DNA of 38,576 nucleotides from Bullifex porci (GCF_009695635.1 NZ_VUNN01000022.1:1-38576), one strand, 5' to 3'. Shown: positions 10,646-30,913, numbered from the stretch's first letter. Made by a program: numbers and translations. The notes: a model not told the origin generated them from the letters alone.

Positions 10646-10648
10646 TTA

Positions 10649-13671: not shown

Positions 13672-13713
13672 AGTTTCCTCCAAAATAAATTTACTTTTAC
13701 GCTTTTTATATAA

Positions 13714-13728
13714 GCAAGAAGTGTGCCA
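13714..13728 (-). promoter_or_regulatory. Sigma-54 (-24/-12) promoter of pspA
   Basis: TGGCAC (13728-13723) and TTGC (13717-13714) are separated by exactly five bases on the minus strand, matching the sigma-54 consensus TGGCAC-N5-TTGC. Transcription would start near 13702, giving a leader of about 30 nt before pspA. This fits PspF-type control of psp operons. Confidence 0.88.
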
Positions 13729-13732
13729 ACTT

Positions 13733-13749
13733 ATATTATTGAATAATAT
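13733..13749. promoter_or_regulatory. 8-bp perfect palindrome next to the sigma-54 promoter
   Basis: ATATTATT and AATAATAT flank a single G, five bases upstream of the -24 element and between the divergent psp genes. It could bind a dimeric regulator. Activator sites for PspF are normally much further upstream, so a repressor or host-factor site, or chance in AT-rich DNA, are alternatives. Confidence 0.35.
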
Positions 13750-13861
13750 CTTATTGTATTACAAGAAGATGGATTTTTACATTTTAAAATTTTTGTAAAA
13801 ATAAATGGTTATTTTATTATTTTCCTTGGTGAAAAATCCCACGTGTGGTAAAATCTCCCAC

Positions 13862-15092: not shown

Positions 15093-16913
15093 TTACCAAT
15101 AAAGAGCTGTTGGATATTTATCACTCTCATTTTTGATAATTACCCTTCCATAGCCTTCAATTAATCCTGCTTTTAATATATCAACCTGGTTAACTATTTC
15201 TTTTGGCCTTGAAATAAGTGTGAAATGATCAAATGAATATGCAATACCTTCTGAACGAGTAAGTACTCTGTTTGAGTCAATTATCCTTATTTCTTCTTCC
15301 TTTATTTCTAGGCTCTTAGTAGAAATAAAAGTAATAATTGCTTCATTAGGATTGAGCCTTTGATCAAGCTTAATTACCTTGCTTTCAAGCTCCTCATTAT
15401 AATGCAAGGAAATAAAACAAGGCTCAACACTAATTCTTGCAGATGAATATATGTATAATTTCTCTTCTCCATTTTCAATTACATTGTTTTTTATTTTACA
15501 GCTAGGATGAAGATGAAATAGAATCTGAGCATCATTTGGCTTATTAGAGAGATATTCATCTACTAGCACAATAATTTCATCTGAAGCTTTAATAATTTTC
15601 CTTCGAATAATTAAGTCTTGATAAGAATAGTTTTCAGCTTGCATTAACTCATAATTGTTTTTTTGTATAAAAATACCTCTAGAGGTTTCACTAATAGCTG
15701 TGTAACTCCATGAACCTTTAGGTAATACAGGGTATCCTTGTTTTAGCATAGGTATGTTGTGAGCTTCAGCACTTTTATAATATAGTCTTTTTTCATTATC
15801 GACATATGTGAATCGACCCGAATCGATGAAGAACGAATTATTTTTACCAGATACATCTATATGAAGTGGAGAAATATGACCATGACCTGAGCCTAGATTG
15901 CCTGTAAACATATGAACCTCAAGCTGAGGTGTTCGAATAATATGGTTGCCACTAGAAATATCTGAATATGAAATAGTGTTACTTTTAATGAGTGTATTAT
16001 TAGGAAGTCCATCAAAGATATTCTCTTCGTTTAAGCCCCTATAGAGTTCTTCATCATTAAATAAGTAAGAAGCAAGTGTTAATAAATCATCTACATTTAT
16101 TTCATCACTATCTCCTAGCAAATAAATGTTTGAATTTCTACTTACCATTTGACTAATAGCTTTAGCCATAGCGTGCGATATATTTAATAAATCCTTTGAA
16201 ACCTTTATATCTGCCTTTCGTGCTTGAAATATTGTATCTAATAGTGCGTGTAGCACCTCTGCTTGGTACATTGGACTTTGCTCCCAATGCATTCCATTTG
16301 CTTCAGTTTGAAAAATAGCTTCCTCTGTTAATCTAGTAAGGGCTAATTGGGCGCATTTTAAATCATCAAAATATAAAGCAATGATAAATAATCCATGATC
16401 CTGTAATACACCCCAATTTGATAGCCTATGAAAGCCTTTATGAGTATTAATTAGTATCTCTTTATGCTCTACAAGTGATTTTTTCATTATCTCTTCTAGT
16501 TGAGAATCTTTTAATAAACCAATACTTCTAAGCCAATTTTCAGGCCTAATTCCAACCTCTAGGCTTCTCCAAGATTCTCCTTTTCTATCAGAATAATTAA
16601 TAAATGAGGAAAAAATAGATTTAAATGTATTTAGATATTTTTGCTCTTTAGTAAGTGCATAGGCCTTAGCAAGATTAAATAAGATACTGTGTCTTGCATA
16701 AGCATAAATCCATTCTGGATCATCTGTTTCTTCAGGAAGCTTATTCCAAAGAGAATGAGAAAATGCTATTGGCGTTATACACCTTTCCATCTCATAGTGT
16801 GCTTTGTGTGTAATATAGCCATGAGTACATTCATCTGCCCATGAAATGATTTCTCGTTTGTCTTTGTCTGATAATAATGAAAGATTTAAATTATTATTTA
16901 TATAAGGGTTCAT
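15093..16913 (-). CDS. Heparinase II/III-family polysaccharide lyase, cytoplasmic
   Basis: This 606-residue protein has an alpha-toroid N-terminal half, with GIRPENWLRSIGLL near residue 125, LSNWGVLQDHGLF near 170 and ANGMHWEQSPMYQAEVLHAL near 215. A C-terminal beta-sandwich half contains GSGHGHISPLHIDVSG followed by FIDSGRFTY and YYKSAEAHNIPML. These are the catalytic and metal-site blocks of PL12/PL21/PL33-like lyases, which cleave uronate-containing glycosaminoglycans by beta-elimination. No signal peptide is visible, unlike secreted heparinases, so it should act on imported oligosaccharides. The exact PL family and substrate (heparan, chondroitin, hyaluronan) cannot be decided here. Its ATG overlaps the regulator stop by four bases, so it is co-expressed with it. 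Confidence 0.85.
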   Translation of the reverse strand: MNPYINNNLNLSLLSDKDKREIISWADECTHGYITHKAHYEMERCITPIAFSHSLWNKLPEETDDPEWIYAYARHSILFNLAKAYALTKEQKYLNTFKSIFSSFINYSDRKGESWRSLEVGIRPENWLRSIGLLKDSQLEEIMKKSLVEHKEILINTHKGFHRLSNWGVLQDHGLFIIALYFDDLKCAQLALTRLTEEAIFQTEANGMHWEQSPMYQAEVLHALLDTIFQARKADIKVSKDLLNISHAMAKAISQMVSRNSNIYLLGDSDEINVDDLLTLASYLFNDEELYRGLNEENIFDGLPNNTLIKSNTISYSDISSGNHIIRTPQLEVHMFTGNLGSGHGHISPLHIDVSGKNNSFFIDSGRFTYVDNEKRLYYKSAEAHNIPMLKQGYPVLPKGSWSYTAISETSRGIFIQKNNYELMQAENYSYQDLIIRRKIIKASDEIIVLVDEYLSNKPNDAQILFHLHPSCKIKNNVIENGEEKLYIYSSARISVEPCFISLHYNEELESKVIKLDQRLNPNEAIITFISTKSLEIKEEEIRIIDSNRVLTRSEGIAYSFDHFTLISRPKEIVNQVDILKAGLIEGYGRVIIKNESDKYPTALYW

Positions 16914-19012
16914 TTACTATCCTTTATAATTTTTTCAGCATATAGCTTTGGTGTTATCCCCACGTATTTAGAAAATACTCGAATAAATGTATTCGCAGAA
17001 GTAAAGCCTAGCTGGAGACTTAAGGCTGAAATCTTTATTTCAGGATCGTCTTCAATAGCTTTACATGCCTTTGAGATTTTTAATCTATTCAAATAGCTTT
17101 TAAAGTTTTCATTTGATAGCTGGCTAAAAAGCTGTGAACAATATTTTGGGGTTAAGTTGAATTCGTTTGCAAGGTCAATTAGCATTATGTTTTCTGTACA
17201 GTGCTCATTAATGTAATCCTTCATTTGCTTTAATGTATCAGATTCCTCAAGTACCTCTTTTTCTCTATTTGATTGCATTGCTTTTGCTAATATTGATCTA
17301 ACTCGCTTGAGTGTCTTATCTGGGTCTGAGTTTGAATATAGCTCTGACCAATCAATAGATTCCCCAAATAGCTCCTCAGGGGTAGTTCTTAGCTCTTGGA
17401 AATAACGAATTACTATTCCAATCATTGTAAAGGTAAAACGTTTATATTCTTCAAAAGAAATATTGGTATTTCTTTCAACTACATTATCAAATATTGATAG
17501 TGCTTCAGGAGAGGATGCAAGTAGGGCTGTAATAAGCTTATTGAACTCTGAAAGTGGGAAAACAATGTGTTTTTCCTCTCCCTTAACGTCATCCTCTGTT
17601 AATATTGTTTTGTTTCTAAATCGATAACGGTAAGAGAGAATATCACTAGCTCTCTTATAGCTCTTTGATATTGTTTGATAACCCTTATTAGTTGATGAAA
17701 GAGCGCATCTAAGCTCTATTTTTTCATTTAATGAGAATGAGAAGCTTTTTAAGGTTTCTGTTAGGTTATTCTTTGAGCTTTCACTATTATCTGCTTTTGC
17801 AACTATTGCAGATTCAATAAAGTTCATTCGAACAAAATGAACATGAGGAAATTGCTTAGAAAAGTTATCAAGCTTAGCAAATAGTAGGTTTAATTCTTCT
17901 TCACTACATTCAAACATAACTGCAGCAACTGTAAAGTATGAGCTTTCATCGTTATCAGCTGTAATGTAAGGAACACCTCTTAAAAAGGCTCTGTACTTCT
18001 GCTGCTCTGAAAGCATTTTCTGTTCTTTTAAAGCATCCTCTAGCTCTAAAGATAATGTTTCAATTTGCTTACAATGCTCTGTTATTAATTCAAATTCATC
18101 CTTAACATCTTCACCCTCAGTTACCTTTGAAATAGTCTCTCCAACAGGCTTATATAGCTTTTGAGCTAATAGATATGAAGTTACAATTGATATAAACACA
18201 AATACTATTGCACAGAAAATAATAAGAATATTTATAGAAGTAATAGTAGGCTCTTTATATGCAAATATAACAGAAAAACCCAAATCAGAGAAAGAGTCAA
18301 CAACACAATGATAGCCTGAAATTGAGGATTCTGTACCATCGGGTGTCCATTTTAATTCATTTATACTATTTTCAAACTTTTCAGAACTAGAGATTGTAAT
18401 ATCTCTAGTTTGATCATGGATGCAATATTCATAGTCTTTATTATTTACCATTTCGTCTGGAAGTCGAAATGTTGATAAGAATGTCAAAGTGGCATCATTA
18501 ACTCGTCTATTAGTAACAAGAAGTAGTGAATTATTCTTATGAGATCTATAAATACCAGGAATAAATACTCCGTCTTTTAGAATTTCATCATCGGGTGAGA
18601 AGGAAGAAGAGTTTTTCTGTATTGTTCCATCAGATGAGATTACAAAGGACTTCGGATCTTGGTTAGTAATGCTTATTGTATAATCTAAATAATCTTGGAA
18701 TGTAGTTTCTTCTCTAGTTGCATGATAAAGCTTTAATGAGTAGAAATAATAGTTTGGGTCACCCCATTCACTATCAGCCCACTGGGATACATTTTCATTT
18801 GCTACTAGTCGATTAATTGAATCCTTAATATATGAAAGAGTTCCTCTTAATAGCTCTCTTTGGGTCATAAGAGCAGAGCTCATTATTTGCTCTTCTCTAG
18901 CATTAAAATTTTTAATAGTAAGTATTGCAACAATTATTAATACAAGTGAAAGGACTACTGCAATGATGCTAAATATTTTTACTATTCTTAAATAATATGT
19001 CCCCTTTTTCAT
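16910..19012 (-). CDS. Membrane-spanning AraC-family transcriptional regulator
   Basis: This 700-residue regulator has a membrane segment at residues ~10-32 (IVKIFSIIAVVLSLVLIIVA), an extracytoplasmic sensor domain of about 220 residues and a second membrane segment near 257-282 (ILIIFCAIVFVFISIVTSYLL). A cytoplasmic linker region follows, then a C-terminal AraC double helix-turn-helix (MLIDLANEFNLTPKYCSQLF and ISALSLQLGFTSANTFIRVF). One-protein sensors of this layout are common beside Lpl-type ABC transporters and polysaccharide genes in Firmicutes and spirochaetes. It probably senses an oligosaccharide outside and controls the divergent transporter operon. It precedes the lyase in one transcript. 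A 180-bp region separates it from the transporter genes. Confidence 0.88.
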   Translation of the reverse strand: MKKGTYYLRIVKIFSIIAVVLSLVLIIVAILTIKNFNAREEQIMSSALMTQRELLRGTLSYIKDSINRLVANENVSQWADSEWGDPNYYFYSLKLYHATREETTFQDYLDYTISITNQDPKSFVISSDGTIQKNSSSFSPDDEILKDGVFIPGIYRSHKNNSLLLVTNRRVNDATLTFLSTFRLPDEMVNNKDYEYCIHDQTRDITISSSEKFENSINELKWTPDGTESSISGYHCVVDSFSDLGFSVIFAYKEPTITSINILIIFCAIVFVFISIVTSYLLAQKLYKPVGETISKVTEGEDVKDEFELITEHCKQIETLSLELEDALKEQKMLSEQQKYRAFLRGVPYITADNDESSYFTVAAVMFECSEEELNLLFAKLDNFSKQFPHVHFVRMNFIESAIVAKADNSESSKNNLTETLKSFSFSLNEKIELRCALSSTNKGYQTISKSYKRASDILSYRYRFRNKTILTEDDVKGEEKHIVFPLSEFNKLITALLASSPEALSIFDNVVERNTNISFEEYKRFTFTMIGIVIRYFQELRTTPEELFGESIDWSELYSNSDPDKTLKRVRSILAKAMQSNREKEVLEESDTLKQMKDYINEHCTENIMLIDLANEFNLTPKYCSQLFSQLSNENFKSYLNRLKISKACKAIEDDPEIKISALSLQLGFTSANTFIRVFSKYVGITPKLYAEKIIKDSK

Positions 19013-19085
19013 ATTCTTAATAATTTTCAGCCATTTTTTTTCATATGTCGAGAAAAACTTGTCACCTTTTTTCCTTTTTCATCTT

Positions 19086-19110
19086 CATTTTTCCTGTTTT
19101 CGGAAAATTG
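19086..19110. promoter_or_regulatory. Candidate operator in the divergent promoter region
   Basis: CATTTTTCC (19086-19094) and GGAAAATTG (19102-19110) are inverted copies (8 of 9 positions) around a 7-base centre. They lie in the middle of the 180-bp gap between the regulator and the transporter operon. It is the most symmetric element there and a plausible site for the AraC-type regulator, although those usually prefer direct repeats. Confidence 0.3.
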
Positions 19111-19192
19111 GATATTACTTGAGAAAAAGAACGATATACAGAATTTAAAAACGCACTTTAGACTGTCTTTGACAATTTGAGGAGGAAGTGAA

Positions 19193-20131
19193 ATGAAAAA
19201 AAAGGATGAGCTCATTGTTCGCCGTGATGTTTCATTAGCAAAAAGGCTTTATAAGTGTTGGCCTTTGTATGTGTTCTTACTCCCAGGATTAATATGGTAC
19301 ATCATGTTCTGCTACAAGCCAATGATTGGTCTTAGAATGGCTTTTTATGATTACAACATATTTAGAGGATTTTCTGGAAGTAAATTTGTTGGGTTAGAAA
19401 ATTTCAAAATCTATATGTCTAGTCCAGACTTTGGAAGAACTTTAAAAAACACTCTTATGATAGCAGTATGGCAGATGGTAATATGTTTCCCAGTTCCTGT
19501 TATATTAGCAATCTTAATTACTGAGATGAAGAGTAAGATTGTCTCAAAGATGGTACAAACAATTTCATTCTTACCACACTTTATTTCAACAGTAGTAGTT
19601 TGTGGTATGGTTGTTAACTTCCTATCTCCAAGTACAGGTATTATCAATATGATTCTTGGAAAATTTGGAATTGAAGCAAAGTATTTCATGGTTTACCCTC
19701 AGTACTTTAGACCAATTTATACAATTATGACTCTTTGGCAGACTGCAGGCTTTAATGCAATTGTTTATATTGCTGCATTAATGGGAATTGACCCTCAGCT
19801 ATATGAAGCTGCAATCGTTGATGGTGCTGGAAGATGGAGAAGAATTATTAATATCACTATTCCAGGTATCATTCCTACTGTAGTAACAATGTTTATTATG
19901 AATATTGGTAAGATGGTTAAGGTTGGATATGAATCAATCCTTCTACTCTACGAACCATCAACATACGCAACAGCCGATGTAATTTCAACATACTCCTTCC
20001 GAATGGGTATTCAGAATGGTGACTATGGTGTTGCTACAGCAGCGGGTCTTTTTGAAGCAGTTATCGCACTTATCTTAGTTGTCGCAGCTAACAAGGTTAG
20101 TAAGCGTCTTACTGAGACAGCACTTTGGTAA
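19193..20131 (+). CDS. ABC transporter permease, LplB type (oligosaccharide uptake)
   Basis: This 312-residue integral membrane protein has about six hydrophobic helices, starting with PLYVFLLPGLIWYIMFCY. The permease signature that docks the ATPase is at about residues 205-225 (YEAAIVDGAGRWRRIINIT). LplB-type permeases pair with LplC-type ones and use large solute-binding proteins for complex glycan oligosaccharides. The ATG has GAGGAGG 6-7 bases upstream and is the first gene of the rightward operon. The next permease starts 12 bases after its stop. Confidence 0.92.
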   Translation: MKKKDELIVRRDVSLAKRLYKCWPLYVFLLPGLIWYIMFCYKPMIGLRMAFYDYNIFRGFSGSKFVGLENFKIYMSSPDFGRTLKNTLMIAVWQMVICFPVPVILAILITEMKSKIVSKMVQTISFLPHFISTVVVCGMVVNFLSPSTGIINMILGKFGIEAKYFMVYPQYFRPIYTIMTLWQTAGFNAIVYIAALMGIDPQLYEAAIVDGAGRWRRIINITIPGIIPTVVTMFIMNIGKMVKVGYESILLLYEPSTYATADVISTYSFRMGIQNGDYGVATAAGLFEAVIALILVVAANKVSKRLTETALW

Positions 20132-20143
20132 GGGGGAATAGAG

Positions 20144-21064
20144 ATGAAAAAAGCAACTGCAATAAGACAAAATGGGAAAAATGCAGGTATTAAAATCCAA
20201 AGTAAAAGTGAAAAGATATTTGATGCAGCATTAAATGTTTTTGGTGTAATACTTGTAGCTATCATTCTGTATCCTATCTACTATGTATTTATCGCTTCTA
20301 TATCAAGACCTCTCCCTGTAGAAAATGGTTCTGTTATCTTAGCACCTGTTGGAGTTACTCTTGAGTCTTATAGACAGGCATTAAAGACTCCATATTTAGG
20401 TACAGCATTGCTTAATAGCCTTTACTATACCTTTGGTGGTGTATTAGTTAATATGGTTTTCTCAACTACAATGGCTTATGCACTTTCAAAAAAGCGCTTA
20501 GTAGGAAGAAAGATTTTTACATTATTTACAGTTTTCACAATGTGGTTTAGCGCAGGTATCATTCCTCTCTATATGACATTCCGTGATTTCCATATGCTCA
20601 ATACACGCTCTGCAATTTTGTTTGGCTTTGCAATGAATACTTACAATATGATTATTCTCAAGAGCTTCTTTGAACAGGTTCCAGAGTCACTTGAAGAGGC
20701 GGCATTTATTGATGGTGCTAGTGATTTTAGAATTTTCTCACAAATATATTTGCCACTATCAAAGCCTGCTTTAGCAACTGTTGGTTTGTTCTATGCTGTA
20801 AATAGATGGAATGGTTACTTCTGGCCAATGAACCTTTTAACAGATGACTCTAAAGTTCCACTACAGGTACTTTTAAAGAAGCTTCTTGTTGATAAGGTAA
20901 AGAATGAAATGGAAAGTGCAATCATTACTTCTGCATCCCTTTCAAGCCAGACAACTACAATTTATGCGCTTATTATTATCGCAATTATTCCGATGGCAAT
21001 CGTCTATCCGTTTGTACAAAAGTACTTCAAGACTGGTTTAACTATCGGAGCAAATAAAGGTTAA
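20144..21064 (+). CDS. ABC transporter permease, LplC/YtcP type
   Basis: This 306-residue permease has a first membrane helix at AALNVFGVILVAIILYPIYY and about five further ones. The docking loop reads LEEAAFIDGASDFRIFSQIY, followed by LPLSKPALATVGLFYAVNRW, which is typical of the CUT1 family LplC/YtcP group. It forms the heterodimeric channel with the preceding LplB-type protein. GGGGGA lies upstream of the ATG. No nucleotide-binding subunit is encoded in the window, so a shared ATPase such as MsmX/UgpC must be supplied from elsewhere; that is family knowledge. Confidence 0.92.
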   Translation: MKKATAIRQNGKNAGIKIQSKSEKIFDAALNVFGVILVAIILYPIYYVFIASISRPLPVENGSVILAPVGVTLESYRQALKTPYLGTALLNSLYYTFGGVLVNMVFSTTMAYALSKKRLVGRKIFTLFTVFTMWFSAGIIPLYMTFRDFHMLNTRSAILFGFAMNTYNMIILKSFFEQVPESLEEAAFIDGASDFRIFSQIYLPLSKPALATVGLFYAVNRWNGYFWPMNLLTDDSKVPLQVLLKKLLVDKVKNEMESAIITSASLSSQTTTIYALIIIAIIPMAIVYPFVQKYFKTGLTIGANKG

Positions 21065-21084
21065 TATCAAAGGAGGATATTATT

Positions 21085-22692
21085 ATGAAAAAGACAATTA
21101 TCATTATGCTCGCACTCCTCGCTCTATGTACTCCTATTTTTGCAGGTGGTCAGAGTGAGAATACAGCAGCAAAACCAACTGCTAGTATCGCACCAACTTT
21201 AAATGCAGATGGTTCCTTCCATCTTCCTATTGTTGATTCTCCAAAAGAATTCACAATTTTCTTAAACTTCAACAATATGCCATTTGATAGCAATTGGAAG
21301 GTTTGGAAGAAGCTTGCTGCTGATACAAATGTTAGCTTCAAGAGTGTAATTAGCCAATCAAACTCAAACGAGACTGAAGCTTATAACCTTATGCTTTCAT
21401 CAGGTAATCTTGCAGATGTTATCGGTTATGTTTCAACTGCTGATCTTGAAAGCCTTGGTCGTGATGGTGGTCTTATCCCACTTAATGATTTAATTGATGA
21501 ATATGCACCAAATATCAAGAAGATGATGGAAGATGATCCTAAGTTCGCACAATATGCAACATCTACAGATGGTAACATCTACTTCATTCCTAAGAACCAG
21601 GGTCTTAAGGCTGCTGAATATTGGTGGATTAGAAATGACTGGCTCCAGAAGCTTGGTCTTGAGGTTCCAACAACAATAGATGAGTTTGAGGCTGTTATGT
21701 ATGCTTTCAGAAACAATGACCCAAACGGTAATGGTGTAAAGGATGAAATTCCTCTCTTCGATAGAGCTGGATGGAAGATGCCTGAAGAATACCTTTACCT
21801 CTTTGATAGCTCAACAGGCTTCTACACAAGAAATGGTGTTGTAGAATTCGAGCCTCTTGAAGAAAACTTCAGATATGGTGTTAGAAAGCTTATCCAGTGG
21901 TATAAGGATGGTATCTTAGATCCAGAAATCTTTACTCGTGGTAATAAGAGCCGTGACGTACTCCTTGCAGCAAACATCGGTGGTTGTACACATGACTGGG
22001 TATCTACAAGTGAATACAATGTAAAGCTTGCAAAGGAAATTCCTGGTCTTGAGATGATTGCTATTGCACCTCCTGCTGACCAGAATGGTGTTGTAAAAGA
22101 AAGAACAGAAAGATTCCCAGGTGTAGGTTGGGGTATTTCTTCAGCATGTAAGGATCCTGTAACAGTAATTAAGTTCTTCGATTATCTCTTCTCAGAGGCA
22201 GGTTCTGCTCTCATGAACTGGGGTATTGAAGGTGAAGAATACTATGTTGATGAAAATGGTAATAAGAAATTCTATGATTCAGTTCTCCATGGTTCACAGT
22301 CTGTAGTTGGTTACCTCAGATCAATTGGTGCTCTCTATCGTGTAGGTTTCAACCAGGATGGTGGTTATGAGCTTGCAAGTATGAACAAGTGGGGCTTCGC
22401 AGCAAGTGAACTCTATGAAGGTCATCCAGAGTGGTTCCTTTCTGATCAGCCACCTTACTCAGATGGTGAGCTTGATATGAAGTATCAGCCAGATGATGAA
22501 GCTCGCTATAAGAGAATTATGAATAACATCAAGCCATATGTTGAAGAGAAGTTCCAGTCATGGATTATCGGTACAGCTGATTTTGAAGCTGATTACGATA
22601 AGTTTATTAGTGAACTCCACTCAAGAGGTATTGATGAAGCAATTGCTATCAACCAGAAAGCTTATGACTACTACATGAGCGCAGGTAAATAA
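21085..22692 (+). CDS. Extracellular solute-binding protein of the LplA type
   Basis: This 535-residue protein has a signal peptide (MKKTIIIMLALLALCTPIFA) and a mature N-terminus starting GGQSENTAAK. The length and the blocks LGLEVPTTIDEFEAVMYAFR and NDPNGNGVKDEIPLF mark the large LplA-type binding proteins that capture oligosaccharides for LplBC permeases. The cysteine in the signal region lacks a good lipobox, so signal peptidase I cleavage after IFA looks more likely, as in many spirochaete relatives. It has AGGAGG upstream. A strong hairpin immediately after the stop may protect its message and raise its level relative to the enzymes downstream. Confidence 0.92.
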   Translation: MKKTIIIMLALLALCTPIFAGGQSENTAAKPTASIAPTLNADGSFHLPIVDSPKEFTIFLNFNNMPFDSNWKVWKKLAADTNVSFKSVISQSNSNETEAYNLMLSSGNLADVIGYVSTADLESLGRDGGLIPLNDLIDEYAPNIKKMMEDDPKFAQYATSTDGNIYFIPKNQGLKAAEYWWIRNDWLQKLGLEVPTTIDEFEAVMYAFRNNDPNGNGVKDEIPLFDRAGWKMPEEYLYLFDSSTGFYTRNGVVEFEPLEENFRYGVRKLIQWYKDGILDPEIFTRGNKSRDVLLAANIGGCTHDWVSTSEYNVKLAKEIPGLEMIAIAPPADQNGVVKERTERFPGVGWGISSACKDPVTVIKFFDYLFSEAGSALMNWGIEGEEYYVDENGNKKFYDSVLHGSQSVVGYLRSIGALYRVGFNQDGGYELASMNKWGFAASELYEGHPEWFLSDQPPYSDGELDMKYQPDDEARYKRIMNNIKPYVEEKFQSWIIGTADFEADYDKFISELHSRGIDEAIAINQKAYDYYMSAGK

Positions 22693-22701
22693 TAAAATAA
22701 T

Positions 22702-22725
22702 GATGTGGGGATTTTTCCCCACATC
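22702..22725 (+). other. 10-bp perfect hairpin after the solute-binding protein gene
   Basis: GATGTGGGGA and TCCCCACATC pair perfectly around TTTT. No T-run follows and the next gene's ribosome-binding site comes 6 bases later. It is most likely a 3'-stabilising or partial-termination element that lets the binding protein be made in excess over the downstream enzymes. Confidence 0.75.
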
Positions 22726-22743
22726 CCTGAAAGGAGAAAAGGA

Positions 22744-24117
22744 ATGAAGAATTTACTTTATGTCTTTGCAGATCAATGGCGATATCATGCATTTGGCTTT
22801 TCTAAGGAGGATAGTGTAGCTACCCCTAATATGGATGCTTTTGCCTCATCATCCCTTTTCTGCTCTCAGGCTGTAAGCACATATCCATTGTGTTCGCCTC
22901 ATAGGGCAGCTTTAATCACAGGAAAGCACCCTTTAAATTTGGGTTTCTGGACAAACTGTAAAATTGGATTACGTGACCACATACATTTAGAGAGCAATGA
23001 AATAACAATTAGTGATGTTCTTCATGATAATGGTTACTTTAATGGCTATATTGGTAAGTGGCACCTTGATTCATCAGAGATGAACTATTCTCAAAGCCCT
23101 AAATCAGGAGCTGCTAATTGGGATGCCTTTACTCCAAAGGGAGAGAGAAGACACAATATAGATTATTGGTACTCATATGGTGCTTATGATAACCATACAA
23201 AGCCACACTATTGGCAGGATAGTGATGATATGGTTGTTGTTGATAAGTGGTCACCTGAGCATGAAACAGATAAAGCAATAGAGTTCTTTGAAGCAAGACC
23301 AAAGGATAAGCCTTTTTCTCTGTTTATCTCTTGGAACCCTCCTCATCCTCCATATGATAAGGTCCCTCAAAGACTATTAGATATGTATCCTGAAGAAAGT
23401 ATTGTCTTTAGAAAAAACGTTCCTCAGGAGATGAGAGAGAACAGTGATTACACCTTAAAGTGGAGAGAATACTATGCCGCTATTACAGGACTTGATGAGC
23501 AGTTTAAAAGATTAATTGATTATTTAAAGGAAAATAATCTATATGATAACACGATTGTAGTGCTATCTGCTGATCATGGTGATTGCATGGGCTCTCATGG
23601 TCTTTATGGAAAGAATATCTACTATGAAGAGTCTGTTAGGATTCCTCTAGTTATTCATGATCCTGATACAAAATGTGGTATCTACGATGGCATATTAACG
23701 AGTGAAGACCATATGCCAACTATTTTAGATATGCTAGGTATAGCAATTCCTGAAAGTGTAGAGGGTAAAAGCCATTTAGCTGCAATAAATGGTGGCGAAA
23801 GAGTTAGGTTATACTCAGAGCATTTAATGATTCCTGGTATGCCTGAGCTTGTTAATCCTTTCCTTGAGAAGGGCCTTGATAATAGAGCCTTTGGTTGGCG
23901 TGCTATTCGAGATGAAAGGTATACATATGTAGTTGATAATGGAGTAATTCCTGGTGAGGAGCAGAAGAGATTTATCTTTGATAATCAAGAGGACCCATAT
24001 CAAATGCATAAAGAGAAATTAGATAAGTGTGATAAGAGAGCTATTAAATATGACTTAATGCTAAAAAACGAGTTTAAAAAGAGTCATGATAACTTTCTTT
24101 TGGGGAGGCAAATATGA
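22744..24117 (+). CDS. Cytoplasmic type I sulfatase (Cys-type), first copy
   Basis: This 457-residue S1-family sulfatase hydrolyses sulfate esters, here probably on glycan sugars. The N-terminus LLYVFADQWRYHAFGF carries the metal-binding Asp, and the formylglycine site is CSPHR at Cys50 (YPLCSPHRAALITG). Further blocks are YIGKWHLDSS, WNPPHPPYDKVP and the metal site SADHGDCMGSHGLYGK. The cysteine form needs an anaerobic radical-SAM maturase, which is encoded at the end of the same operon. There is no signal peptide, so the substrate must be imported first. I start at 22744 because AAAGGAG lies just upstream; an ORF extension runs into the preceding hairpin. The positional specificity (2-, 4- or 6-sulfate) cannot be read from sequence alone. 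Confidence 0.92.
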   Translation: MKNLLYVFADQWRYHAFGFSKEDSVATPNMDAFASSSLFCSQAVSTYPLCSPHRAALITGKHPLNLGFWTNCKIGLRDHIHLESNEITISDVLHDNGYFNGYIGKWHLDSSEMNYSQSPKSGAANWDAFTPKGERRHNIDYWYSYGAYDNHTKPHYWQDSDDMVVVDKWSPEHETDKAIEFFEARPKDKPFSLFISWNPPHPPYDKVPQRLLDMYPEESIVFRKNVPQEMRENSDYTLKWREYYAAITGLDEQFKRLIDYLKENNLYDNTIVVLSADHGDCMGSHGLYGKNIYYEESVRIPLVIHDPDTKCGIYDGILTSEDHMPTILDMLGIAIPESVEGKSHLAAINGGERVRLYSEHLMIPGMPELVNPFLEKGLDNRAFGWRAIRDERYTYVVDNGVIPGEEQKRFIFDNQEDPYQMHKEKLDKCDKRAIKYDLMLKNEFKKSHDNFLLGRQI

Positions 24118-25280
24118 GTGTGTATGAAGGTGAAAAACCATTAGAAGGAAAGGATTTAGAAAGTGCTATTAGCTATGCAGTTAGACAAACTGAGAGCTCA
24201 TTAAGGGATTATACCTATAAGTTTAAGTATTCTCATAGTGTTAATGGCTTTTATCCTGCTACAGAGAATGTTGAGTGGACAACAGGCTTCTGGACTGGTG
24301 AAATTTGGCTTGCCTATGAGCTTTCGAATAATACTAGGTTTAAGGATTCTGCTTTAATCCAGGTTGATTCATTTTTAAATAGAATTATAAATAAAATTGA
24401 TGTTAACCACCATGATATGGGCTTTTTGTACTCTCCATCATGTGTTGCTGCTTATAAGCTAACAGGCTCTGAGAAGGGTAAGAGGGCTGCATTACTTGCT
24501 GCAGATAATCTTAAATCACGCTTCCAGGAGAAGGGCGGCTTTATCCAAGCTTGGGGTGATTACGGTGCTGCAGATAACTATCGTCTTATTATCGATTGCT
24601 TACTAAATATCCCTCTTTTGTATTGGGCTACAGAGGAAACAGGTGATGAAAGCTATAAGAGAGTTGCAGATAGTCACCTTGAAACAGCAATGAAGTGTGT
24701 AGTTAGACCTGATAACTCAACCTACCATACATATTTCTTTGATATAGACACAGGTAAGCCTTTAAAGGGTGTTACCTTCCAAGGCTATAGAGATGGCTCT
24801 GCTTGGGCTCGTGGTCAAGCTTGGGGTGTTTATGGTTCTGCACTTGCATATAAATATCTAAGAAAGGAGGAATACTTAGATATCTTTAGAAGGGTTACAG
24901 GCTTCTTCTTAGATAATCTTCCTTCTGATATAGTTCCATATTGGGACTTTGACTTTAAATATCCTTCAACAGAGCCTAAGGATACTTCTGCATTAGCTAT
25001 TGCTATTTGTGGAATGCTAGAGGCAGCAAAGTACACTCAGGAGAGTGAGAGTGTTAAGCTAATTGATGATGCAAAGCGCCTCTTAGGAGTACTTGCTAGA
25101 GATTATGCTGTTAAGGATCCTCATACCTCAAATGGACAGCTTTTGCATGGAACCTATGCGAGAAAGAGTCCTTATAATCCATGTAATAATAGAGGTGTTG
25201 ATGAGTGTAATATTTGGGGTGACTACTTCTATATGGAAGCTCTAACACGCCTTTATAAGGATTGGGAGCCTTATTGGTAA
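24114..25280 (+). CDS. ugl: Unsaturated glucuronyl hydrolase, GH88 family
   Basis: This 388-residue (alpha/alpha)6-barrel enzyme hydrates the unsaturated uronate left by polysaccharide lyases and so releases the adjoining amino sugar. The two catalytic Asp residues of the family are seen as D101 (NHHDMGFLYSPSC) and D161 (NYRLIIDCLLNIPLL). Substrate-side aromatic blocks are WTTGFWTGEIWLAYE and GSAWARGQAWGVYGSALAYK. There is no signal peptide. The ATG overlaps the sulfatase stop (ATGA) with GGGAGG upstream. Presence of GH88 rather than GH105 supports a glycosaminoglycan-like substrate (uronate linked to HexNAc). The start is the first ATG and alternatives lack a ribosome-binding site. Confidence 0.93.
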   Translation: MSVYEGEKPLEGKDLESAISYAVRQTESSLRDYTYKFKYSHSVNGFYPATENVEWTTGFWTGEIWLAYELSNNTRFKDSALIQVDSFLNRIINKIDVNHHDMGFLYSPSCVAAYKLTGSEKGKRAALLAADNLKSRFQEKGGFIQAWGDYGAADNYRLIIDCLLNIPLLYWATEETGDESYKRVADSHLETAMKCVVRPDNSTYHTYFFDIDTGKPLKGVTFQGYRDGSAWARGQAWGVYGSALAYKYLRKEEYLDIFRRVTGFFLDNLPSDIVPYWDFDFKYPSTEPKDTSALAIAICGMLEAAKYTQESESVKLIDDAKRLLGVLARDYAVKDPHTSNGQLLHGTYARKSPYNPCNNRGVDECNIWGDYFYMEALTRLYKDWEPYW

Positions 25281-25283
25281 GAT

Positions 25284-26708
25284 ATGAAAAACTTTGTCAT
25301 CTTTCAGCTTGATCAACTTGCATCTAGAGCATTAAGAGTATATGGAAATAATGATTCATATACTCCGAATATCGATAAACTTTGTGAAAGTGGAGTAGCG
25401 GCAGAGGCCGCTTACTCTCCATGTCCTCTTTGTCAGCCAGCTAGAGCTGCACTTTGGTCTGGTCAATATAGTCATAGAAATAGAGTGTGGTCAAATGGAA
25501 GAGCATGGCCAATAACTCCTCTTGATGATACCTTCCCAGCTCTTGGGGAGGAATTTAGAAAGGCGGGCTATAAGGCAGTACACTTTGGCAAAAAACATGA
25601 TGGTGGTGCTTTAAGGGGCTTTGAGTGCTCAGAGGAAAGAGAAACAAGAATTGCGGATGAGAATAAAAGATTTCCATTTAATATGGATAGCTATGCAGAT
25701 AAATATACTTTAGATGAAGCTATTAAATTTATCTCCTCCTATAGCTTTGATAAGCCACTTTGTATGGTTGTTGATTTTATTAATCCTCATAATATTTGTG
25801 GCTTTGTCGGAAAAAATAAAGGGCCACATGAGCCTTTTAGTGGACCTCTTCCTCAGCTTCCAGAGAACTATGAGTTTGATGATATTATAAATCGTCCCAC
25901 ACCTGTAAAATATCTTTGTTGCTCTCATGTTAGACAAGCACAAACAGTTGGATGGTGTGATGATAATTTTAGAGAGTATCTTGCTGCCTATTACTACTAT
26001 TTATCTGTTGCTGATAGATATATTGGAGAGATAATTAATAGGCTTGAGAACAGTAAAATTAAGGGTGATATTACATATATTCTTCTTTCTGACCATGGAG
26101 ATAGCATGGCAGCAAGAGGAAGTGTAACTAAGCAGGTTACGTTATATGAAGAGGTAACTAGAGTTCCTTTTATCTTTTCTGGTGCGCTTGTAAAGAGTAG
26201 GGGTATTGCTAAGGGAATCTGCTCAACATTAGATCTTTTCCCGACACTACTTTCTCTTGCAGGAATTGAAAGACCTAATGGCCTTGATGGTGTTGATATT
26301 TCTCAAATATTAACAGGAAATACTCTTCCTAAACGTGAATATGTTACTTCAGAGTGGTTTACAGAGTGGGGATACACTATTTCACCTGGAAGAATGATAA
26401 GAAAGGATAATGTTAAATATATCAGATATTTAGAGGATGATGGTGAAGAGCTATATCTTTTAGATAGAGACCCATTTGAAAAGCATAATGCTGCTAAGGA
26501 TGAGCCAGAACTGTTAGCTAATATGAGAGCTTTACTTGATAGCTACATAAAGGACAGTGAGGATCCATTCTATACTCTTCCTGTTAAGGCTGATAAAAGG
26601 TGGAGAAGTCACTCATGTGGATATCAAAACCATAGAGGTCCTACCGCACCTGAGGAATTAAGTGGTAATAATGCAAAAGTAAATGTATCATTAGTAAGGA
26701 ATCAATAA
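25284..26708 (+). CDS. Cytoplasmic type I sulfatase (Cys-type), second copy
   Basis: This 474-residue S1 sulfatase differs clearly from the first copy and so probably removes sulfate from another position. The N-terminal metal block is FVIFQLDQLASRALRVYG, and the formylglycine site is CQPAR at Cys50 (CPLCQPARAALWSG). Later blocks are AVHFGKKHDGG, DFINPHNICGF and the metal site LLSDHGDSMAARGSVTK. There is no signal peptide. The gene starts three bases after the GH88 stop. The C-terminus is long and ends with an HRGPTAPEELSG segment, which could reach over the active site. It needs the maturase encoded downstream. Confidence 0.92.
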   Translation: MKNFVIFQLDQLASRALRVYGNNDSYTPNIDKLCESGVAAEAAYSPCPLCQPARAALWSGQYSHRNRVWSNGRAWPITPLDDTFPALGEEFRKAGYKAVHFGKKHDGGALRGFECSEERETRIADENKRFPFNMDSYADKYTLDEAIKFISSYSFDKPLCMVVDFINPHNICGFVGKNKGPHEPFSGPLPQLPENYEFDDIINRPTPVKYLCCSHVRQAQTVGWCDDNFREYLAAYYYYLSVADRYIGEIINRLENSKIKGDITYILLSDHGDSMAARGSVTKQVTLYEEVTRVPFIFSGALVKSRGIAKGICSTLDLFPTLLSLAGIERPNGLDGVDISQILTGNTLPKREYVTSEWFTEWGYTISPGRMIRKDNVKYIRYLEDDGEELYLLDRDPFEKHNAAKDEPELLANMRALLDSYIKDSEDPFYTLPVKADKRWRSHSCGYQNHRGPTAPEELSGNNAKVNVSLVRNQ

Positions 26709-26726
26709 ATTATTAGAGGAACTTTT

Positions 26727-27503
26727 ATGGAAATTGCTATTAAAAGAGATGAAAATATAATTGCTTCAAAGAGTGGTGAAGTTGAAGCATATTTAGTATT
26801 TAACGAAGAGTTTATTCCTGGAGATGCAATTGTACTAAGGAACCTTGAAAAGGGACATTATCTTATAGACTTAGGACTTGGTAGAGCAATTGTATATTCA
26901 AATGGTAAGGACTTTGTATTCCCAATACCTTTCAATGAGAAGAAGGATTGCTACGACCAAAGAGTGTTTACAGGAAATATACACTATATGTATGCACGTA
27001 AGGCATATGACTTTGAATATCAATATAGAAATGTTGCTTACAACCCATATGATGGCCATAGTAATGATGCAATATTCCCACATTCAAAGGCAAATATTGA
27101 AACTAGAGGAGAGAGTGTATTTGCTTCTCGTAATGCATTTGATGGTGTTGTTGCTTCATCATCCCATGGAAGATGGCCTTTTGCTAGCTGGGGTATAAAT
27201 AGAGATCCAAATGCAGAGCTTTATCTTGAATTTGGAAATGCAATGATTATCGATAGAATAATAATGTATACACGTGCCGATTTCCCTCATGATGCATGGT
27301 GGGATCGTTGTACTGTTCGCTTCTCTGATGGCTCTGAGCTAACTCTTGAGCTAGAGAAGAAGGATGGAAGACAGGAATTCGTCTTCTCACCAAAAATAGT
27401 TTCATCACTTACAATTTGTAATCTTATTAAAAGTGACGATCCTTCTCCATTCCCTGCTTTAATCCAAGCAGAGGTATATGGAAAGGAACGTGTTTGGAAA
27501 TAA
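26727..27503 (+). CDS. Cytoplasmic discoidin (F5/8-C)-like protein of unknown function
   Basis: This 258-residue protein has an N-terminal beta domain (to about residue 85). A central segment follows with conserved-looking RNVAYNPYDGHSN, FPHSKANIETRGESVFASRN and ASSSHGRWPFASWGINRDPN. A C-terminal jelly-roll segment has the F5/8 type C look (LYLEFGNAMIIDRIIMYTRA). There is no signal peptide and no catalytic motif that I recognise. Its placement between a sulfatase and a sugar kinase suggests it binds or processes an intracellular oligosaccharide or sugar intermediate. A terminator-like GCGA hairpin follows. It could be a lectin-like chaperone for the imported glycan or an enzyme of unknown chemistry. 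Confidence 0.65.
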   Translation: MEIAIKRDENIIASKSGEVEAYLVFNEEFIPGDAIVLRNLEKGHYLIDLGLGRAIVYSNGKDFVFPIPFNEKKDCYDQRVFTGNIHYMYARKAYDFEYQYRNVAYNPYDGHSNDAIFPHSKANIETRGESVFASRNAFDGVVASSSHGRWPFASWGINRDPNAELYLEFGNAMIIDRIIMYTRADFPHDAWWDRCTVRFSDGSELTLELEKKDGRQEFVFSPKIVSSLTICNLIKSDDPSPFPALIQAEVYGKERVWK

Positions 27504-27513
27504 TTACGTCTTG

Positions 27514-27545
27514 CTTCAGCAGCGATGCTGGAGCATTTTATCTTT
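27514..27545 (+). terminator. GNRA-loop hairpin with T-rich tail (partial terminator)
   Basis: CTTCAGCA (27514-27521) and TGCTGGAG (27526-27533) pair over eight positions with one T-G pair and a GCGA tetraloop, followed by CATTTTATCTTT. It lies between the discoidin-like gene and the kinase and would reduce transcription of the kinase and maturase relative to the enzymes upstream. Confidence 0.6.
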
Positions 27546-27572
27546 AAATTAAGAGGGAGTAATAATCTACCT

Positions 27573-28646
27573 ATGGACGAAAAAGCATTAACTCAATTTC
27601 CTATCGCTCTTCCATTAAAGGAAGTAAAAGCGTTAACAAATGGTATTATCAACACAACTGATTTAATAACAGCTGCTGATGGCCAAAAATATATATTTCA
27701 GAAAATCAATACCAATATTTTTAAAAATACTGAAGGTATGATGAAGAATATTGATATTGTTACAACTCATATTAGAGAAAAGGCTGCAAAGAGTGGTAGA
27801 GACCCAGAGAGAGCAACTCTCCATTTTCTACCAGCTTCAAATAATACCTTATTATATAAGAATGAGAATGGTGCTTACAGAGTATCAAAATACATTGCAA
27901 ATACAGTTTCCTTTGAGGGTAAGGCCACTGAAAAATCTCTTGAGATGGCAGGTAGAAGCTTTGGAACCTTTATTAAGGATTTGTCAGATTTAGATGCTTC
28001 ATTACTCTCAGAAACTCTCCCTAACTTTCATAACACTCCTATGAGAATTGCACACTTTTTGGAGACAGTAAAAAGTAATCCTGCAAATAGATTAGATAGT
28101 GCAAGGGAAGATGTTGATTACCTTATTAGCTTAATCGATGAGGGCTCTAAGCTATCAAAGATAAAGCTACCTTTACGTGTTACTCACAATGATACTAAGA
28201 CAAGTAATGTGCTTGTTGATAAAACTACTCTTGAGCCTTTAGCTGTAATTGACCTCGATACAGTAATGCCGGGCTTACTTTGTCATGATTTTGCAGATTC
28301 AATTCGTTACTCAGCAAACTATGTAGCAGAGGATGAGAAGGAATATTATCGTGCTGGTCTTGATATCGATATGTATAAAGCCTATGCAAAGGGCTTTATC
28401 CCAGCTGTAAGCTCAATAATTACAAAAGAGGAAATAGATACATTAGTTCAAGGTGTTATTACAATTGTATATGAGCAGGCAATTAGATTCCTAGATGATT
28501 ATCTTGCAGGTGATGTTTATTACCATACTCAATATAGTGAGCATAATTTAGTAAGAACTAGAACTCAAATTGGTCTATTAAGAGATATGCTTAAAAGACG
28601 AAACGAAATGGAAGCAATTGCTAGAGATCCAAGCTTATATAAATAA
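27573..28646 (+). CDS. N-acetylhexosamine 1-kinase-like phosphotransferase (NahK-type, APH fold)
   Basis: This 357-residue kinase of the aminoglycoside-phosphotransferase fold phosphorylates sugars or small molecules. Family blocks are the N-terminal LTNGIINTTDLITAADG, YIFQKINTNIFKN and MMKNIDIVTTHI, the catalytic loop VTHNDTKTSNVLVD (HxDxxxxN) and the metal site AVIDLDTVMPG. These match the group that includes NahK, which makes GlcNAc-1-P or GalNAc-1-P. That product would follow naturally from GH88 plus sulfatase action on unsaturated glycosaminoglycan disaccharides. I start at ATG 27573; an in-frame ATG at 27525 lies inside the terminator-like hairpin. Substrate could instead be another hexosamine or a homoserine-like compound. 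Confidence 0.82.
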   Translation: MDEKALTQFPIALPLKEVKALTNGIINTTDLITAADGQKYIFQKINTNIFKNTEGMMKNIDIVTTHIREKAAKSGRDPERATLHFLPASNNTLLYKNENGAYRVSKYIANTVSFEGKATEKSLEMAGRSFGTFIKDLSDLDASLLSETLPNFHNTPMRIAHFLETVKSNPANRLDSAREDVDYLISLIDEGSKLSKIKLPLRVTHNDTKTSNVLVDKTTLEPLAVIDLDTVMPGLLCHDFADSIRYSANYVAEDEKEYYRAGLDIDMYKAYAKGFIPAVSSIITKEEIDTLVQGVITIVYEQAIRFLDDYLAGDVYYHTQYSEHNLVRTRTQIGLLRDMLKRRNEMEAIARDPSLYK

Positions 28647-28661
28647 TTTGGTGGGGATATT

Positions 28662-29771
28662 TTGAATAGAACCTTTTTAATAAAGCCATCATCGGGCAGC
28701 TGTAATATGCGCTGTACATACTGCTTTTATAAGGATGAAATAGATAATAGAAGCGTAAAGAACTATGGCTTTATGACAAATAGTATTGCCAAGTGCTTAA
28801 TAGATAAGGCCTTGGCAAATATTAATGATAATGTAAACTTTTCCTTCCAAGGAGGGGAGCCGACTCTCTCTGGCCTTGATTTCTTTAGAGAATTTACTTC
28901 ATATGCTAAGGAAAAGGGCGGTGAAAGAGTTACCTTCTCGCTCCAAACTAATGGGTATATCATAGACCGTGAATGGGCAGCCTTTTTCCATGATAATGGC
29001 TACCTAATTGGTCTATCTCTCGATGGAAATAAGAAGATTCATGATATCTACCGTATTGGACCAGATAATAAGGGAACCTTTGTTAAGGCCTTTAGAGCTG
29101 CATCCTTTTTTAATGCAGAGAAGGTTGAGTTTAATATATTAACTACCGTTAATAGAGTAGTTGCTCAAAATATTGGTGATATCTTTGATTTCTTTAAACG
29201 AAATGGGTTTAGATATTTACAGTTTATACCTTGTCTTGATGAAATAAGCGGTGTTAAAAATGACTATTCATTAACTCCAGAGCTATATGCAAAGGCCTTA
29301 AAGGTACTATTTGATAGATATTTTGATTCCTGGCGTAGGGATGAATATATATCAATTAGGTATTTCGATAACCTAGTAACTATGCTCCTTGGCTATCCTC
29401 CTGAGGCATGTGGAATGAGAGGAGTTTGTGGAAATTACTATGTAATTGAGGCCGATGGCTCTGTCTTCCCTTGTGACTTCTATGTCCTTGATGAGTATAA
29501 GCTGGGAAATATTACCTCCTCATCTCTTGATGAGCTTGATAAAAAGAGAGCTGAAATAGCTTTTATTGAGAAATCAACAAAGGTCGAGGAGGAGTGTAAG
29601 AAGTGTCGTTTCTTCTCTCTTTGTAGGGGAGGCTGCAGAAGAGATAGAGAGAACTTTAACACTAAGGAGCTCTCTCTAACTTATTTATGTCCTGCATATA
29701 AGGAATTCTTTAATTATTCACTTGAGCGTTTAATATATATGGCTGAAGCTGAAAAAAGAGCGAGGAGCTAA
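28662..29771 (+). CDS. Anaerobic sulfatase-maturating enzyme (radical SAM, anSME)
   Basis: This 369-residue radical SAM enzyme converts the active-site Cys of sulfatases to formylglycine in the cytoplasm without oxygen. The radical cluster motif is C14-C18-C21 (GSCNMRCTYCFY), followed by FSFQGGEPTLSG. The C-terminal SPASM-type auxiliary cluster cysteines are in YPPEACGMRGVCGNYYVIEA, GSVFPCDFY and ECKKCRFFSLCRGGC. The length is typical. It starts at TTG with GGGG 6 bases upstream. As the last gene of the operon it would mature both Cys-type sulfatases, and its cytosolic location fits their lack of signal peptides. It ends two bases from the convergent AAA gene. Confidence 0.95.
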   Translation: MNRTFLIKPSSGSCNMRCTYCFYKDEIDNRSVKNYGFMTNSIAKCLIDKALANINDNVNFSFQGGEPTLSGLDFFREFTSYAKEKGGERVTFSLQTNGYIIDREWAAFFHDNGYLIGLSLDGNKKIHDIYRIGPDNKGTFVKAFRAASFFNAEKVEFNILTTVNRVVAQNIGDIFDFFKRNGFRYLQFIPCLDEISGVKNDYSLTPELYAKALKVLFDRYFDSWRRDEYISIRYFDNLVTMLLGYPPEACGMRGVCGNYYVIEADGSVFPCDFYVLDEYKLGNITSSSLDELDKKRAEIAFIEKSTKVEEECKKCRFFSLCRGGCRRDRENFNTKELSLTYLCPAYKEFFNYSLERLIYMAEAEKRARS

Positions 29772-29784
29772 AGCTATTTTAGCT
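29766..29784. terminator. Hairpin spanning two convergent stop codons
   Basis: AGCTAAA (29766-29772) and TTTAGCT (29778-29784) form a 7-bp stem that overlaps both the maturase and the AAA gene stops, which are two bases apart. T-tracts are only weakly placed, so it may be a bidirectional terminator of modest strength. Confidence 0.45.
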
Positions 29785-30913
29785 TCTCTCTAATTCTAAT
29801 TGCAGCTTGGTTAATTAGCCTTGCATCTATAGCTTTTTGCTCAGTTTGAATCATTAATGAAATAGCTTCATTCAATATACTTTCAATAGCAGCACAGGAA
29901 AGTCCATTAAAAGCATTAACAAGCATATCTCTTGTAAGCTCTGGAGCAAGTGGCTTTCCTTTTGTGTATATATCGATTAGCTCTCCTCTTGTATCCTTAT
30001 CTGGGTTTGAAATAGTGTATTTTAAATCAAAGCGTCCAGGACGAACTAAAGCAGCATCTAATGATTGATATGAGTTAGTAGCTGCAATAACTACTACACC
30101 ATTTAATGAAGAGAACCCATCCATCTCATTTAGTAGTGTTGTAATTATTCTATTGTTTTCTTTATCAATGCCACTTCCTTGGTATGATCTCTTTTCACCG
30201 ATTGAATCAAATTCATCGATAAAGATTATACATGGCTTTTTCCTTCTTGCTTTTGAAAAGAGCATCTTAACCTTAAATGCTCCTAAGCCCATTAATGCAC
30301 CTTGAAAGTCAGCACCCTTAGTTGCAATAAAGTTTACTCCACATTCCTCTGCAAGAGCCTTTGCAAATAGTGTCTTACCATTTCCAGGAGGGCCCTCTAG
30401 GATGATGCCTCTACTATTTCTAATCTTCTCATTTTTATTCTTCATTAAATCAATTGTGAATTTAATTTCTTTCTTTAAATCCTTAAGTCCCGCAACTTCA
30501 TTAAAGGTAATTCCTGTGTGGTGAATTACTTTAAATGTATTTGTATACCAAGAAATTAGCTTGTAAAGTCCAAAGATTATTAATGCAAGGAAGAATATAT
30601 TAAATACCATATCTCCAATGGCATTAATATCTGTGTTATCACTCTTTACAGCTACATCGTTTAAAAGTAGCTCCTCTAATAGATTAGGAGAACAAGGGTT
30701 AATGACACTATAAAGCGTGCTATCATCCTTAAGAGTGTATTTAATTGTATTAGGATTTATTTGAGCACTTTCGATAGCACCACTATCGAGAGCTAATCTA
30801 AAATCCTTATAGCTTACACTTACAGATGAATCAAGAAGGTCAAAGCCAAATATCGCTATAACACTTGCAATGACGATAATAGAAAGTAGATAAAGTATTT
30901 TTCTTTTATTCAT
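29774..30913 (-). CDS. FtsH-like membrane AAA+ ATPase lacking the protease domain
   Basis: This 379-residue protein has the FtsH N-terminal plan: membrane segment at ~6-25, a ~75-residue extracytoplasmic domain with VSYKDFRLALDSGAIESAQI, and a second segment at ~103-121. An AAA+ module follows: Walker A GPPGNGKT (174-181), Walker B IIFIDEFD (229-236), sensor-1 Asn280 (AATNSYQSLD) and arginine fingers in LVRPGRFD. It ends after the helical lid (IREKLK), so the M41 zinc protease domain (HEXXH) is missing. The pore-loop aromatic of FtsH (FVG) is replaced by Leu (LMG). It may be an unfoldase, scaffold or pseudo-FtsH modulator. It is the last gene after the MtnA-like gene, eight bases downstream. 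Confidence 0.85.
   Translation of the reverse strand: MNKRKILYLLSIIVIASVIAIFGFDLLDSSVSVSYKDFRLALDSGAIESAQINPNTIKYTLKDDSTLYSVINPCSPNLLEELLLNDVAVKSDNTDINAIGDMVFNIFFLALIIFGLYKLISWYTNTFKVIHHTGITFNEVAGLKDLKKEIKFTIDLMKNKNEKIRNSRGIILEGPPGNGKTLFAKALAEECGVNFIATKGADFQGALMGLGAFKVKMLFSKARRKKPCIIFIDEFDSIGEKRSYQGSGIDKENNRIITTLLNEMDGFSSLNGVVVIAATNSYQSLDAALVRPGRFDLKYTISNPDKDTRGELIDIYTKGKPLAPELTRDMLVNAFNGLSCAAIESILNEAISLMIQTEQKAIDARLINQAAIRIREKLK

Follow-up and report, generated by a model that had tools for sequence, protein, structure and literature searches.

The window analysed here, 38,576 nucleotides of Bullifex porci DNA, is contig C15 of a draft genome of 2.42 Mb in 67 contigs. Between positions 15093 and 29771 it carries an island of 11 genes, a divergent regulator–lyase pair on the minus strand and a nine-gene operon on the plus strand, which an original prediction, made from the sequence alone, had proposed to serve the intracellular catabolism of sulfated glycans. 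Pfam and NCBIfam profile searches of the window proteins back the gene families. The minus-strand pair consists of a heparinase II/III-fold polysaccharide lyase of 606 amino acids without a signal peptide (15093–16913) and a membrane-anchored AraC-type regulator (16910–19012; HTH_18/HTH_AraC), the two genes overlapping by 4 bp. Hydrophobic segments near residues 10–35 and 257–285 of the regulator provide two predicted transmembrane segments with an extracytoplasmic domain in between, and the AraC helix–turn–helix is C-terminal.

The operon (19193–29771, plus strand) has successive intergenic gaps of 12, 20, 51, -4, 3, 18, 21 and 15 bp. Its products are ATP-binding cassette (ABC) permease 1 (19193–20131; BPD_transp_1, 68–88% identity in related islands) and permease 2 (20144–21064; BPD_transp_1), an exported solute-binding protein of the Smon0123/AlgQ class (21085–22692), the sulfatases S1 (22744–24117) and S2 (25284–26708) with a GH88 unsaturated glucuronyl hydrolase (UGL; 24114–25280) between them, a discoidin/CBM32-like protein without a signal peptide (26727–27503), an NahK-like N-acetylhexosamine (HexNAc) 1-kinase (27525–28646) and an anaerobic sulfatase-maturating enzyme (anSME) of the radical SAM type (28662–29771). 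The island is confirmed as originally described: regulator and lyase lie together on one strand, and all the other genes follow in the proposed order on the other. No ATPase gene is present within the island. Importers with this class of binding protein and permease usually rely on a shared ATPase, and the MalK OB domain has five matches elsewhere in the genome. A 10-bp inverted repeat (22702–22725), detected as a minus-strand terminator-like match, occupies the interval between the binding protein and S1 and might be an mRNA stabiliser or processing element. A promoter scan of the window gave matches no more numerous than in shuffles.

The best solved relative of the binding protein is Smon0123 of Streptobacillus moniliformis (5xs8/5gub; E 6e-112), with AlgQ2 and AlgQ1 ranking next (E about 5e-90). 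Smon0123 imports unsaturated chondroitin and hyaluronan disaccharides and prefers 1,3-linked over 1,4-linked delta-disaccharides; its contacts with unsaturated chondroitin disaccharides were tabulated by Oiki et al. Nine of the 14 tabulated contacts are identical in the window protein (R204, K210, W284, S287, R322, R393, Q405, Y409 and E410). These nine touch delta-GlcUA-GalNAc and its sulfates and include all those that hydrogen bond to the uronate, and they are identical in the binding proteins of all islands of the same type save L097, for which the reading is in the wrong frame. AlgQ2 has the residues on the uronate side but neither K210 nor R393, the two in contact with GalNAc and its sulfate. 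H36, Y146, L326, L389 and W413 of Smon0123 are not retained in the window.

Both sulfatases are of the Cys type and carry the C-x-P-x-R motif recognized by anSME, as CSPHR in S1 and CQPAR in S2. The PDB matches of S1 are headed by 2qzu (298 bits) and 6j66 (286), then 8di0 and 6s21; all four fall at 220–300 bits and the next at 119, which places the 4-O-sulfatase group ~100 bits above the remaining matches. The best match, 2qzu, is uncharacterised, 6j66 is a chondroitin/dermatan 4-O-sulfatase and 6s21 is an endo-4-O-sulfatase. Active-site residues listed for endoVB4SF (6j66) are kept in S1 except for Glu57, which is Gln. By homology, S1 thus appears closest to the chondroitin sulfate/dermatan sulfate (CS/DS) 4-O-sulfatases and is S1_27-like. 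S2 matches BT1596 (5g2t/3b5q) with 408 bits (E 4e-121) against ~98 bits for the next family, and has the invariant signature positions of S1_9, namely D10, YSPCPLCQPAR, NPHNIC, SDHGD and KY..Y....GEEL...DP.E..N (PMC6460246); it seems closest to the delta4,5-hexuronate-2-O-sulfatases and is S1_9-like.

The operon pairs its two Cys-type sulfatases with a maturase: the anSME scores 369.1 bits against TIGR03942, above the cut-off of 349.45. As the sole copy in the genome it would serve three Cys-type, signal-less sulfatases, the third being encoded on contig C34. Of the 17 genomes with such an island 16 have an anSME, compared with eight of 20 genomes outside that set (Fisher p 0.0007, without correction for relatedness). 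A YhgA-like transposase gene lies close to the gene for the third sulfatase (L047:4144-5679; G000:C34), whose immediate neighbours encode a LacI-like regulator and an ABC transporter.

GH88 aligns with the streptococcal enzyme SagUGL (2zzr/3anj) at E 1e-113, with D101 and D161 opposite D115 and D175, which we take to be the catalytic residues. In Bacteroides, GH88 fails to act on disaccharides sulfated at 2-O or 4-O (PMC9067506), a limitation that would account for the S1 and S2 genes bordering the GH88 gene. The kinase matches solved NahK (4wh1/4ocj) at E 1e-70 over ~335 residues and is placed with the NahK-like N-acetylhexosamine 1-kinases, whose activity is predicted for it; the gene is part of the operon here and also in genomes G019 and G509. 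KduI, KdgA and KdgK are encoded in the genome outside the island. The discoidin-like protein is 46–76% identical in three relatives, and its model (pLDDT 62, low confidence) matches F5/8 C2 and CBM32 folds, which is suggestive only. A cytosolic F5/8-type protein (26727–27503) is unexpected, and it is strongly conserved in three other loci.

Cellular location was judged from a simple N-terminal hydrophobicity scan combined with upstream stops. For the lyase, GH88 and S2, in-frame stop codons shortly before the start rule out a missed N-terminal extension. The start of S1 was re-set to the ATG at 22744, which has AGGAG upstream; the GTG at 22705 given in the open reading frame list falls inside the hairpin at 22702–22725. 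The absence of signal peptides from the lyase, the sulfatases and GH88 had been central to the original prediction, and no export signal surfaced when the starts were corrected: the stops exclude one for the first three enzymes, and the ATG does so for S1. N-terminal hydrophobicity is 0.6–1.3 for the window enzymes compared with 3.4 for the binding protein, and the trend is the same over ~18 related loci (binding proteins ~2.4–3.6, lyases 0.4–1.4). The exported PL8 lyase of a related island, G148, scores 2.6, apart from the lyases, the S1-type sulfatases and most GH88 proteins. Values of 2–3.0 in some S2 relatives raised the possibility of signal peptides, which we rejected: the hydrophobic residues belong to the initial core strand, which carries the metal-binding catalytic Asp, and there is no cleavage site. 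A cytosolic location of the island enzymes is therefore a well supported prediction and is consistent across loci.

The unusual feature of the island is its family of signal-less heparinase-fold lyases. The window enzyme has both the Hepar_II_III_N and Hepar_II_III_C domains but is far from characterised members: the nearest solved sequence relative is heparinase III BT4657 (4fnv; E 7e-4), and the NCBIfam HepC equivalog gives 45.5 bits, below its cut-off of 600. The AF2 model (pLDDT 89) superposes on HepIII/PL12, PL17, PL33 and GAGase-type lyases with Z about 20–29, HepC being the first Foldseek match. Because these lyases span many specificities, the fold does not reveal the substrate. Heparinase II/III superfamily enzymes use an Asn/His-Tyr mechanism. 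N166, Y216, H344, H346 and H385 are invariant across 23 relatives, which makes catalysis by this mechanism plausible, and in the alignment with 4fnv its N260 and Y314 stand opposite N166 and Y216; we found no paper that documents the catalytic residues of heparinase III. The enzyme may act on imported oligosaccharides. Relatives are found in the same genus and family, in one Treponema record and in Romboutsia, Faecalimicrobium, Neobacillus and Paenibacillus, some of them near GH88.

A second recurring layout (L045, L048, L049, L038, L039 and L027, L029, L030) places signal-less heparinase-fold lyases near or adjoining GH88, as in Neobacillus; the S1/S2 pair is not beside the lyase, and in the class of the window the permeases are others. 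The genome itself encodes a paralogous lyase of 667 amino acids, also without a signal peptide (L046:3166-15883; G000:C12), together with two permeases, a binding protein, an AraC regulator and several metabolic genes; that island is likely to have a different substrate.

A binding-protein search sampled 395 genomes of the class, and a close binding protein was present in 17. In nearly all of these it is surrounded by the same core, comprising a divergent AraC gene, both permeases, S1, and GH88 and/or S2, a grouping that exceeds chance. The lyase gene is divergent beside AraC in seven islands (the window, L031, L036, L088, L089, L094 and L095) and in L044 it lies inside the operon, between the binding protein and S1. 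About half of the islands have the lyase; in some of the others the contig or the examined stretch ends too early for a judgement. In G148, from another family, the exported PL8 lyase sits between the binding protein and S1, and the stretch examined holds no heparinase-fold lyase. With G148 as positive control, PL8 (PF02278) was not found in six other genomes, including this one; secreted lyases of glycosaminoglycans (GAGs) beyond PL8 and relatives of the window lyase were not searched for. Most islands (L088, L089, L091, L092, L094–L096 and L098) encode one more sulfatase downstream of S2 that resembles solved sulfatases (4upi, S1_30A) only weakly; it might add a sulfate-ester activity missing from the window.

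We consider that the island is probably a utilisation locus for short sulfated GAG fragments of the chondroitin/dermatan type, of animal origin, which would be imported and then degraded in the cytosol. The substrate is narrowed to chondroitin/dermatan (beta-1,3-linked), rather than heparan, on the basis of the binding-protein contacts, the 4-O-sulfatase homology of S1 and the exported PL8 of G148. Gene content, the lack of export signals, the family assignments and the retained contacts are read from the sequence itself; the substrate, the lyase function, the regulation and the following order of steps are inferred. Outside the cell, GAG chains would be cut by the lyases of other organisms, and short unsaturated sulfated oligosaccharides or disaccharides would bind to the Smon0123-like protein and pass through the two permeases, driven by a shared ATPase whose gene lies outside the island. 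Within the cytosol, the Cys of each sulfatase would be converted to formylglycine by anSME, and the heparinase-fold lyase could trim longer imported oligosaccharides to disaccharides, which would widen the diet. S2 would remove the 2-O-sulfate from the delta-uronate and S1 the 4-O-sulfate from GalNAc, after which GH88 would split the desulfated disaccharide. The uronate would pass to KduI, KdgK and KdgA, and NahK would yield HexNAc-1-P. The extracytoplasmic domain of the AraC regulator probably senses a ligand. Cytosolic desulfation, delta-uronyl hydrolysis and HexNAc 1-phosphorylation, as originally proposed, remain the best reading of the family matches and the lack of export signals. The proposal that sulfated oligosaccharides enter intact stands as regards ABC uptake but not as regards size: disaccharides or short oligosaccharides are most likely, since the scheme calls for larger ones only on the premise that the cytosolic lyase uses this substrate, and several islands are without it.

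Several observations weigh against this assignment. In the binding protein H36 and Y146 of Smon0123, which contact the N-acetyl group of GalNAc, are replaced by Phe and Gln, so that the sugar preference could differ. Tyr436 of endoVB4SF, a docking residue, is not kept in S1. The motif S-x-S-x-K, presumably the sulfate-binding motif of streptococcal UGL, is not kept in the window GH88. For the onward route from HexNAc-1-P a search for a UDPGP-type uridylyltransferase gave no match, although its control was also silent and so this is no evidence of absence. At least four islands with good coverage (L091, L092, L097 and L098) have no lyase, so the lyase falls outside the core, and its best solved sequence relative is a heparan lyase, heparinase III.

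The islands without the lyase also suit an explanation that is compatible with the rest of our scheme, in which the transporter, S1, GH88 and S2 handle disaccharides only and the lyase, though adjacent, serves another substrate. Related lyases at other loci do accompany other permeases. Against such independence, lyase and regulator genes overlap or are adjacent in the seven islands with the divergent arrangement, and in L044 the lyase gene stands within the operon, in the slot that is held by the exported PL8 in G148. We regard a mere neighbour as rather unlikely, though worth keeping in mind.

It is improbable that the same cytosolic scheme is directed at heparin or heparan sulfate oligosaccharides, with the lyase acting as a heparan lyase. 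The relationship to heparinase III and the leading position of HepC in Foldseek would fit, and in Bacteroides the BT1596-type 2-O-sulfatase serves heparan too; however, a family match at E 7e-4 does not give the substrate, the HepC score is far under its cut-off and the fold group covers many specificities. Moreover, the operon has no recognisable N-sulfatase or S1_11-type 6-O-sulfatase, and heparan as the main substrate is disfavoured by the closeness of S1 to CS/DS 4-O-sulfatases, by the retention of contacts from a protein that prefers 1,3-linked delta-disaccharides and by the use of PL8 in the sister island G148. Slightly more improbable still is another sulfated uronic acid glycan, of algal, microbial or plant-diet origin, that resembles a GAG only in the common delta-uronate end: heparinase-fold lyases do include alginate, ulvan and further specificities, and GH88 adjoins this lyase family in Neobacillus and Romboutsia, but a HexNAc-containing GAG is indicated by the NahK-like kinase, by the 2-O- and 4-O-sulfatases, both of GAG type, and by contacts K210 and R393 on the GalNAc side.

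Well conserved and coherent in its biology, the island is best read as a recognisable variant of the Streptobacillus GAG cluster and not as a system of a new kind. The original prediction had set a cytosolic pathway against the largely periplasmic one of Bacteroides; the contrast is right, but the mode is not new, as a 2017 study put forward, and in part demonstrated, ABC import with subsequent desulfation and UGL cleavage in the cytosol of Streptobacillus moniliformis (PMC5430744). In that organism unsaturated GAG disaccharides are imported unmodified, and the cluster has a sulfatase and a UGL predicted to be cytoplasmic and a PL12-type gene (PMC5430744). The window shares with Smon0115–0128 the aldouronate-type permeases, the Smon0123-type binding protein, the PL12-type heparinase II/III gene and the cytoplasmic-predicted sulfatase and UGL. 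The island itself lacks PL8, the ATPase and KduI/KduD/KdgK/KdgA, and adds an S1_9 2-O-sulfatase beside the 4-O-type enzyme, a membrane AraC regulator encoded divergently, anSME, the NahK-like kinase and the discoidin-like protein; a further difference is that the window lyase is without a signal peptide. With no PF02278 match in the genome, we describe the island as a Smon-type variant without its own PL8.

The CS polysaccharide utilization locus (PUL) of Bacteroides thetaiotaomicron (BT3324–3350 and BT1596; PMC9067506) likewise combines a lyase, an S1_27 4-O-sulfatase, an S1_9 2-O-sulfatase and GH88. Its enzymes are at the surface or in the periplasm, with SusCD and import of monosaccharides, whereas in the window ABC import precedes the enzymatic steps, which are all assigned by prediction to the cytosol. 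Streptococcal and Firmicute GAG loci resemble the window in that UGL acts in the cytosol after import, but they use a phosphotransferase system (PTS) in place of the ABC transporter (PMC5430744, PMC9067506). The PTS phosphorylates the substrate on import, and for this reason 6-sulfated sugars are thought unsuitable for such loci. Sphingomonas A1 imports oligo- or polysaccharide for intracellular lyases, the same principle as in the window. Its AlgQ1/Q2–AlgM1M2S system resembles the window in the class of binding protein, but is directed at alginate and has no sulfatases. We found no description of GAG utilisation by spirochaetes in the open-access literature.

Other features of the window lie outside the island. 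Immediately beyond it, a minus-strand gene (29774–30913) encodes an FtsH-like protein of only 379 amino acids that matches the AAA ATPase and the FtsH extracellular domain but not the M41 peptidase; by its domains it reads as FtsH minus the protease part. At 13033–14845 a PspA/IM30 gene is divergent from a PspF-looking sigma-54 activator, a psp-type envelope stress module. Two DUF4097 (toastrack) proteins are encoded side by side at 9926–11509 (minus strand), and a reading frame of 571 amino acids at 36794–38509 (minus strand) has no Pfam match.

The island extends cytosolic catabolism of sulfated GAGs through ABC import to an apparent spirochaete lineage, with a desulfation set, of 2-O and 4-O type, fuller than that of the Streptobacillus locus. 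Around one transporter–sulfatase core, PL8 in exported form and a heparinase-fold lyase in the cytosol occur as alternatives, which offers a natural comparison. It also becomes possible to check a published assumption, namely an extracellular action of the PL12-type gene in clusters of this sort (Smon0124). As a tentative proposal, which we hold with reserve, the cytosolic heparinase-fold lyases of spirochaetes and Firmicutes, probably a new PL family or subfamily, might degrade imported sulfated GAG oligosaccharides and so replace the secreted PL8, their carriers being fragment scavengers that release no depolymerase. The island suggests that its carriers compete for GAG fragments which others release.

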